Part shown: in pieces, positions 583-15,769 of the stretch
Position numbering within the stretch: the first letter of the stretch is position 1
How the letters are laid out: each line of letters starts with the position of its first letter
Assembly (NCBI RefSeq): GCF_026241135.1
Contig: NZ_JAPFGA010000001.1
Location: forward strand, 124,001-188,000
Origin: Galbibacter kalidii
GTDB taxonomy: Bacteria > Bacteroidota > Bacteroidia > Flavobacteriales > Flavobacteriaceae
Length of the DNA: 64,000 nucleotides
Reading direction: 5' to 3'
Translations under genes and position numbers: made by a program
The notes under the pieces: generated by a model
Told to the model about the DNA's origin: nothing
Seen by the model: the letters and a program-made list of their open reading frames with translations, nothing else
Database searches by the model: none

Positions 583-909
583 TATCTTAGAACAATTCTG
601 TCCTAAATAAATTTTTATCTGTTCATTTTTTCCATTGATGAAAAAACGAACCAAAAAAATCTAGGCTGACGATAAAAACATAAGAAAATACTACGGAATC
701 CCCAGCCACAGATAAAAATAACTCATTCCGCCTTAGGGCGGAACTCAAACAGATTTTTATCTTTAACCCACCGCTGCTTCCTTGATTTTCAATATTTTTA
801 TCGTAGGCCGGAACCAAACCACAAACGTTGAAATTTCATCTAAACCTTAGCAAATTCAGTATGTTAAAAAAATTCAATAAAAACGTTTTGGACGCTATTT
901 ATCTTAGAA
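583..909 (+). mobile_element. MITE-like element, left copy, with flanking direct repeats
   Basis: The element body is 593-899. Its first 248 bases (593-840) match the reverse complement of the copy at 15471-15759 with only two substitutions, both in the central hairpin. A variable stretch of about 35 bases follows, then another identical end (876-899). The body is flanked immediately by the 10-base direct repeat TATCTTAGAA (583-592 and 900-909), as expected for a target-site duplication. The ends are imperfect inverted repeats sharing AAT-N3-GTCC and a TTTTTAT word. In the middle, 710-762 folds as a long hairpin with outer arms AGATAAAAAT/ATTTTTATCT and inner arms TTCCGCC/GGCGGAA (726-732, 737-743). 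There is no transposase, so it would be non-autonomous. Confidence 0.8.
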
Positions 910-1218: not shown

Positions 1219-1385
1219 AGACAACCTCACCGGGCTTTCCGCTGTATCTGTTTTGCCGATTCTCGGTTGCAGAAAGTATTTTTGAGTATTTTTATGTTAT
1301 GTAGGCCATTGATTCACGACTCACTCGTACAGCAAAACAGGATGCCGCTGCAATCCCTGGCGCGTTTATTACAGAAAGATTAACT

Positions 1386-15460: not shown

Positions 15461-15769
15461 CTTTAGAACTAATAGCGTCCAAAACGTTTTTATTTAATTT
15501 TTTGAGATTTTGATGAAATTTCAACGTTTGTGGTTTGGTTCCGGCCTACGATAAAAATATTGAAAATCAAGGAAGCAGCGGTGGGTTAAAGATAAAAATC
15601 TGTTTGAGTTTCGCCCCAAGGCGGAATGAGTTATTTTTATCTGTGGCTGGGGATTCCGTAGTATTTTCTTATGTTTTTATCGTCAGCCTAGATTTTTTTG
15701 GTTCGTTTTTTCATCAATGGAAAAAATGAACAGATAAAAATTTATTTAGGACAGAATTGCTTTAGAACC
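15461..15769 (-). mobile_element. MITE-like element, right copy, inverted relative to the left copy
   Basis: Element body 15471-15759, on the opposite strand to 593-899. Direct repeats CTTTAGAAC-T (15461-15470) and CTTTAGAAC-C (15760-15769) abut it on each side, 9 of 10 bases equal, as for a target-site duplication. The sequence of its duplication differs from that of the left copy, although both contain a CTT(T)AGAA word, so the two copies inserted separately. One central hairpin arm is mutated (GGCGAAA instead of GGCGGAA in element orientation). A 64-codon open frame spans both copies but has no protein-like features. Confidence 0.8.

Follow-up and report, generated by a model that had tools for sequence, protein, structure and literature searches.

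The window, by which we mean the whole stretch of 64,000 nt of Galbibacter kalidii DNA analysed here, carries upstream of bshC a short element with a body of 308 bp on the plus strand (593–900), bordered on both sides by the same 9 bp, ATCTTAGAA (584–592 and 901–909). On base composition alone, an exact 9-bp match would be expected by chance with a probability of 5.7e-6. The element is multicopy in the genome and its end motifs are common to other copies: the left end, CAATTCTGTCC (593–603, plus strand), resembles CAATCCTGTCC of related IS at two other loci (L072 and L167), and the right end, GGACGCTATT(T) (890–900, plus strand), matches the ends of an IS in the same genome. The preliminary description had correctly seen that the flanking repeat is exact and that the body begins at 593. 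It had taken the repeat as 10 bp, TATCTTAGAA, and the body as ending at 899, but comparison with other copies and with the IS gives a repeat of 9 bp, the tenth base, a T, belonging to the body, whose final position is variable and which ends at 900. Both ends share the motif AAT-N3-GTCC as described, and five GATAAAAA-type words are found in the body, at 671 and 711 on the plus strand and at 612, 754 and 795 on the minus strand. As stop-free frames in this copy reach 70 codons at most, the element encodes no transposase, in agreement with the first reading. Between the ends lies a structured region, core element A (620–809, plus strand), composed of hairpin 1, a spacer and a long imperfect two-level hairpin 2. 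The stability of the central hairpin corresponds to z = −3.6 for plus-strand DNA, −4.3 for plus-strand RNA and −4.7 for minus-strand RNA, and no shuffled sequence was equally stable. Its presence is thereby borne out; it is not specific to this element, however, but is part of a distinct structured repeat with a much wider distribution.

A second copy with a body of 290 bp lies inverted at 15470–15759 (minus strand) and has its own 9-bp duplication, CTTTAGAAC, on either side (15461–15469 and 15760–15768). The earlier account of an inverted, near-identical copy holds except for its start, which is 15470 and not 15471. Within the first 248 bases the two bodies differ by two substitutions (positions 143 and 149), followed by a variable patch and then by ends that are again alike, as had been described. 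Core element A of this copy occupies 15543–15732 on the minus strand.

The preliminary description had proposed searching the genome and its relatives for further copies and examining these for duplications, and the outcome is a multicopy element with 9-bp duplications. At least 46 pieces of the element were detected by blastn in the G. kalidii genome at 72–100% identity (40 of 102 first-look candidates scored), and at least 32 of 99 relatives contain a blastn match at E ≤0.001 (seven candidates scored per genome), most of these matches covering the hairpin-1 part only. No match was obtained in a plasmid collection searched with the element. Pairing of end motifs at 42 loci of the own genome and 11 loci of sister species yielded 42 end pairs, 36 of them from the own genome. 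After removal of seven alternatives that overlapped others and of a weak pair (L012, 2882–3117, with eight end mismatches and 2 of 9 matching duplication bases), 28 own-genome elements with both ends paired remained. The duplication is exact (9/9) in 12 of them, matches in at least eight of nine bases in 18 and in at least seven in 21; in the remaining seven elements 2 to 6 bases match. As a control, the same flanks were shifted against each other for all 42 end pairs, and among 1890 such comparisons none reached 8 or 9 matches and one reached 7. Pairing the flanks of different elements gave 9 matches in 0.2%, 8 in 0.9% and 7 in 2.5% of the cases, which exceeds the offset control owing to the likeness of the targets to each other. 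A palindromic target, TTTAK-GTTTWAAAC-CTAAA (TTTAKGTTTWAAACCTAAA), emerges from the 25 end pairs in which seven or more bases match, a set that includes sister species and counts L095 in both orientations. Two-ended elements are also present in the sister species G003 and G006 (L032 with 8/9, L102 with 9/9, L100 with 8/9, and L031, whose duplication is exact once shifted by one base).

Several loci deserve a separate remark. At L007 (1490–1825), one of the seven elements with 2 to 6 matches, the flanking repeat TATTTCTTAATTCCTTCC exceeds 9 bp and extends into the left end. L093 (289–521) and L095 (about 304–521, on either strand), with duplications of 8/9 and 7/9 and both counted among the 28 elements, represent a second short family that has IS4-like ends and, judged by eye, another core. 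Runs of a degenerate CCTAAA..TTTAGG palindrome, which resemble the target palindrome, occur around the IS in L060 (about 1100–1250 and 2590–2700) and around one copy of the short element, in the flanks of L015.

The search for a transposase gene with similar ends, likewise proposed beforehand, led to an intact IS in the same genome. The right end, used as query, pointed to contig C19, where a DDE_Tnp_1 gene lies between two copies of AAACGTTTTGGACGCTATT that face each other at a distance of 1.3 kb. The IS (G000:C19:31323-32658, within L060) is 1336 bp long, runs from CAATAGCGTCC to GGACGCTATTG, is flanked by the 9-bp duplication CTAAATAAC and contains a single intact frame for a transposase of 389 aa with the domains DDE_Tnp_1 and DUF4372. 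This protein scores 262.7 bits against the NCBIfam IS4 model NF033592 (cut-off 115) and contains D127, D193 and E298 together with Y-(2)-R-(3)-E-(6)-K; these DDE residues and the YREK motif agree with the IS4 hallmarks given in PMC2266710. The family, which the preliminary description had left unnamed, is thus IS4. The right end of the short element is identical over 20 bp to one end of the IS and in 19 of 20 positions to the other, and both have a target-site duplication of 9 bp. One copy of this IS was found in the own genome, both ends of which are of the CAATAGCGTCC type and neither of the left-end type of the short element. Among the 99 relatives, six have IS matches at E ≤1e-30, the nearest being G046 with 69–74% identity and an interrupted frame.

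With respect to the description of the IS4Sa subgroup in PMC2266710, the IS is alike in its single-frame DDE transposase, its YREK motif and its ends (CA------T). The spacing D(60-110)D(100-150)E given there compares with 65 and 104 residues in the transposase, and the tabulated size of 1150–1750 bp and duplication of 8–10 bp compare with 1336 bp and 9 bp; a palindromic target like that of the short element is not mentioned for IS4Sa in the part of that source covered here. Judged by ends, size and repeat length, the IS probably belongs to IS4Sa.

The unequal ends of the short element can be compared with related IS in other genomes. Ten loci were scanned for ends, and seven of these possess an exact 9-bp duplication (L071, L072 of G046, L074, L075, L078, L079 and L080); L074, L075, L078, L079 and L080 are more distant IS with other ends, and the scan found none at L073, L076 and L077. 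In a scan of the titled genome contigs, 32 loci were recorded, including one of Salegentibacter agarivorans (L167). Ten of the 32 were checked for ends besides L060: six show a credible element, with an exact duplication in L166, L169, L172 and the more distant L176 and with 7/9 in L165 and L167, and no credible element was seen at L168, L171, L173 and L175. Relatives with 69–74% transposase identity match in 7 to 9 of 9 duplication bases, and their CAATAGCGTCC end is partnered by CAATCCTGTCC (L072, L167), by CAATAGTGTCC (L165, L166, L169) or by CAATAGCGTCC itself (L172). In L072 and L167, which are from other genera, the two ends accordingly differ, being CAATAGCGTCC and CAATCCTGTCC, the latter situated 3′ of the transposase gene, and the short element has CAATAGCGTCC and CAATTCTGTCC. 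From this two-ended pattern it follows that the unequal ends of the short element correspond to both ends of such an IS. Since the one IS copy found in the own genome has no end of the left-end type, the short element may have arisen from a different IS copy that has since been lost.

We then considered core element A on its own. Covariance model R1 matches the left copy in the window with 218.4 bits, this copy being among the 21 used to build the model, and the second copy with 216.5 bits. In a sequence-based alignment of the 21 copies, 94.6% of the cells pair and 19 pairs are changed on both sides, compared to 11.1 in shuffles; the covariation score is 0.245 versus 0.084 in shuffles (0 of 500 as high), for a structure partly derived from the same alignment. 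In total, R1 gave 104 matches, 96 of them distinct, in 71 loci. In an alignment of these matches that is fitted to the model, both sides have changed in a compensatory way at 46 of 48 pairs, with a covariation score of 0.518 versus 0.131 in shuffles. Rfam 15 gave no match at the short element or at A, either in the window at the gathering threshold or in 20 loci at E ≤0.5. The cores of L015, L019, L020 and L028 contain at the same place a self-complementary insert of 20 nt, CCTGCCTGCCGGCAGGCAGG or one base off, and in a subfamily made up of L009, L012, L022, L030, L086, L092 and L094, hairpin 1 carries an insert that consists of all or part of GTTCATGATTGCTGTGCAATTCATTGAT. A comparable variant of hairpin 1 in other genera (L041, L043) hints at an exchange of core modules. 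By eye, some copies also allow a pairing of the loop with downstream sequence (CTTGAT with ATCAAG).

Copies of A without IS4 ends occur in other Flavobacteriales, as read by eye, and in many Bacteroidota. At E ≤1e-4 we found A in at least 59 of 149 genomes of the family and in at least 33 of 296 genomes of the phylum (23 of 140 genera), the own genome included in both; the counts are lower bounds because only 17 and 8 candidates, respectively, were scored per genome, and the searches covered Bacteroidota genomes, with E-values that are rough. The phylum matches listed score at least 37 bits each. As background, the top score in 42.5 kb of loci selected because of other genes was 11.5 bits, and in 91 kb of such loci it was 19.5 bits (E 0.019). 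Of the 96 distinct copies, five coincide in part with an ORF of 100 aa. Similarity between copies is 0.78 within a genome, a figure raised by the inclusion of tandem copies, and 0.56 between genomes, and 0 of 1000 label shuffles gave a value as high. In some genomes A is clustered on the same strand, in operons or in tandem arrays (L141, L142 of G020, L145 of G027 and L153 of G107) with a period of about 330–500 bp; no ORF of 100 aa is found between the copies in the arrays L142 and L145. The close same-strand copies prompted a reading of the clusters as integron-like gene cassettes, which we rejected: there is no 100-aa frame in the L142 arrays, and a further two clusters turned out to be ordinary operons (methionine/sulfite and sugar metabolism).

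One alternative assumes that A is a cis-acting RNA, a leader or attenuator, and that the short element spreads a regulatory RNA. The strong covariation described above is in favor of this, and so is the location of several copies inside operons, among them those for methionine/sulfite and sugar genes, but the genes looked up next to A have unrelated functions and Rfam gave no match at A. Where both neighboring genes agree in direction (n = 49, with 33 mixed cases), A is antisense to them in 38 cases and sense in 11 (binomial p 1.4e-4); counted once per genome, however, the bias is reduced to 19 antisense versus 9 (one tie, p = 0.087). In paired cells, a total of 159 G-U and 93 A-C mismatches would agree with an RNA, but 74 of the G-U come from one constant U-G column, and without it 85 G-U stand against 93 A-C. 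In a control with 31 tRNAs of the own genome, for which the register was chosen for maximal pairing and which is thereby favored, we counted 25 G-U and 0 A-C. The near equality of G-U and A-C with the constant column left out suggests folding as DNA rather than RNA. Our findings therefore suggest, in a way that hinges on the omission of that column, that A is constrained for DNA folding, or by correction during palindrome repair, and not as one RNA strand. Altogether we regard a cis-acting RNA as unlikely.

A further possibility is that A is a REP moved by a resident RAYT (Y1 transposase). The own genome carries Y1_Tnp genes, and no target duplication of A is clearly apparent: a shared word of at least 6 nt was present in the flanks of 31 of 94 pairs, which include some copies of A borne by the short element, compared to about 20.5 among pairs that had been shuffled, an excess too small to define a duplication. 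Against this, Y1_Tnp matched in ten of 14 A-bearing genomes and in none of the other four, and the 13 Y1_Tnp loci in these ten, taken together with some 1.5 kb of flanking DNA at either end, contain no match to A better than E 0.49. The resident gene (L081) is flanked, as seen by eye, by a different REP-like palindrome of the GCTCCGTAGGAGCG type. An involvement of RAYT thus appears highly improbable.

It could also be argued that the mobile unit is A itself, in the manner of ERIC or REP sequences and with an enzyme acting on single-stranded hairpins, so that the IS4-like ends would be secondary. The distribution of A over the family, the lack of IS4 ends in the copies examined outside the genus, the greater likeness of copies within genomes and the sharp ends of A, at hairpin 1 and at TAGGCC, would all fit. 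For the two copies in the window, however, the 9-bp duplications sit exactly at the IS4-type ends and not at the ends of A, and L093 and L095 have similar IS4 ends without, by eye, an A core. We therefore give this explanation hardly any credence.

Empty orthologous sites bear on insertion directly. The bshC gene (TIGR03998) is present in all seven genomes of the genus, the own included, and the comparison of its upstream regions proposed in the preliminary description revealed a single-copy site in two of them. The sequence in the window is ATCTTAGAA-element-ATCTTAGAACTAATTTT, and at the corresponding place the sister species G003 and G002 have ACATCTTAACTAATTTTT once. In G003 (L109), the joined window flanks align cleanly through the junction, with a single ATCTT--AACTAATTTT. 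The same empty site in G002 (L105) was read by eye because the program alignment puts the gaps elsewhere. G004 and G005 have no element near bshC and a junction too diverged to read, G006 contains a different core copy just upstream of bshC, and G001 shows no apparent synteny there; the program alignment of the joined flanks did not resolve the junction in G002, G004, G005 and G006. The site of the second copy, between mnmA on the left and a gene on the right that resembles fabK below the cut-off of the model, was compared with five fetched stretches and L105. Both flanking genes were found in the stretch of G001 only, where they match stretches about 70 bp apart without an element, compared to 573 bp in the window. 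Given the empty sites and the independent duplications, and with no point found in its favor, conserved ancestral intergenic DNA without any insertion is an explanation with practically no remaining probability.

Like ends, a 9-bp duplication, an IS4-family transposase and the two-ended relatives of the IS make the short element a MITE of the IS4 family. The reading that we prefer, to which we assign a probability of roughly 0.92 on the basis of sequence comparisons, is a non-autonomous IS4-family MITE that a transposase like the one of the IS on contig C19 would mobilize and that has element A between its ends. The multicopy 9-bp duplications, the empty sites and the intact IS with the same end support the earlier assumption of an enzyme encoded elsewhere, and mobilization in trans by the IS transposase is probable. 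In this mechanism the DDE transposase would recognize both MITE ends in trans, excise the MITE and paste it into the palindromic target, leaving the 9-bp duplication; cut-and-paste is here carried over from what PMC2266710 reports for the IS4 family. A copy of element A was probably captured between IS4 ends and multiplied as cargo, and the many copies of the MITE differ in divergence. More tentatively, and with the odds rather against it, A may be an undescribed, phylum-wide mobile or self-propagating structured DNA repeat that is conserved for its folding as DNA and not as RNA, is spread within genomes by an enzyme of its own and was captured by IS4-type ends in one genus. If so, one mobile element would ride the machinery of another, and if A has its own mobility enzyme, this enzyme would be a target for discovery. 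For the MITE, an orphan so far, a probable enzyme, an exact duplication and a target palindrome are now at hand, so that mobilization in trans by an IS4 transposase is directly testable in Flavobacteriaceae. The cargo is likewise isolated as a two-hairpin repeat without an Rfam match that is present in many Bacteroidota genomes and whose covariation resembles a constraint on DNA folding.

Titles and the openings of abstracts in the literature, with subscription journals mostly outside the search, contained no description of the MITE or of A; for papers on candidate structured RNAs, the search for A covered part of PMC2864571. Compared to bacterial MITEs as portrayed in parts of PMC10969869 and to BrickBuilt of Porphyromonas gingivalis (PMC4596501, likewise in part), the element is similarly short, AT-rich and transposase-less, with IS-like ends, multiple intergenic copies and a stable hairpin. 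It differs from what these sources describe by its IS4-type ends, 'IS4' being absent from the main text of PMC10969869, and by its core, which is a structured repeat in its own right and is widely distributed as such. Element A for its part resembles, by description, ERIC-type palindromes: it is also an imperfect palindrome, of about 165–235 bp, intergenic, multicopy and more alike within a genome. ERIC sequences are large imperfect intergenic palindromes; A, unlike these, consists of two distinct hairpins and occurs across Bacteroidota. Flavo-1 RNA (RF01705) is another structured element of Bacteroidota, and its model matched neither the MITE nor A. A Flavo-1 RNA-like element is located nearby in the window, between the MITE and bshC (1224–1366, minus strand), with 39.2 bits against a gathering score of 42, and by eye a similar Flavo-1-like sequence lies upstream of bshC in the sister species.
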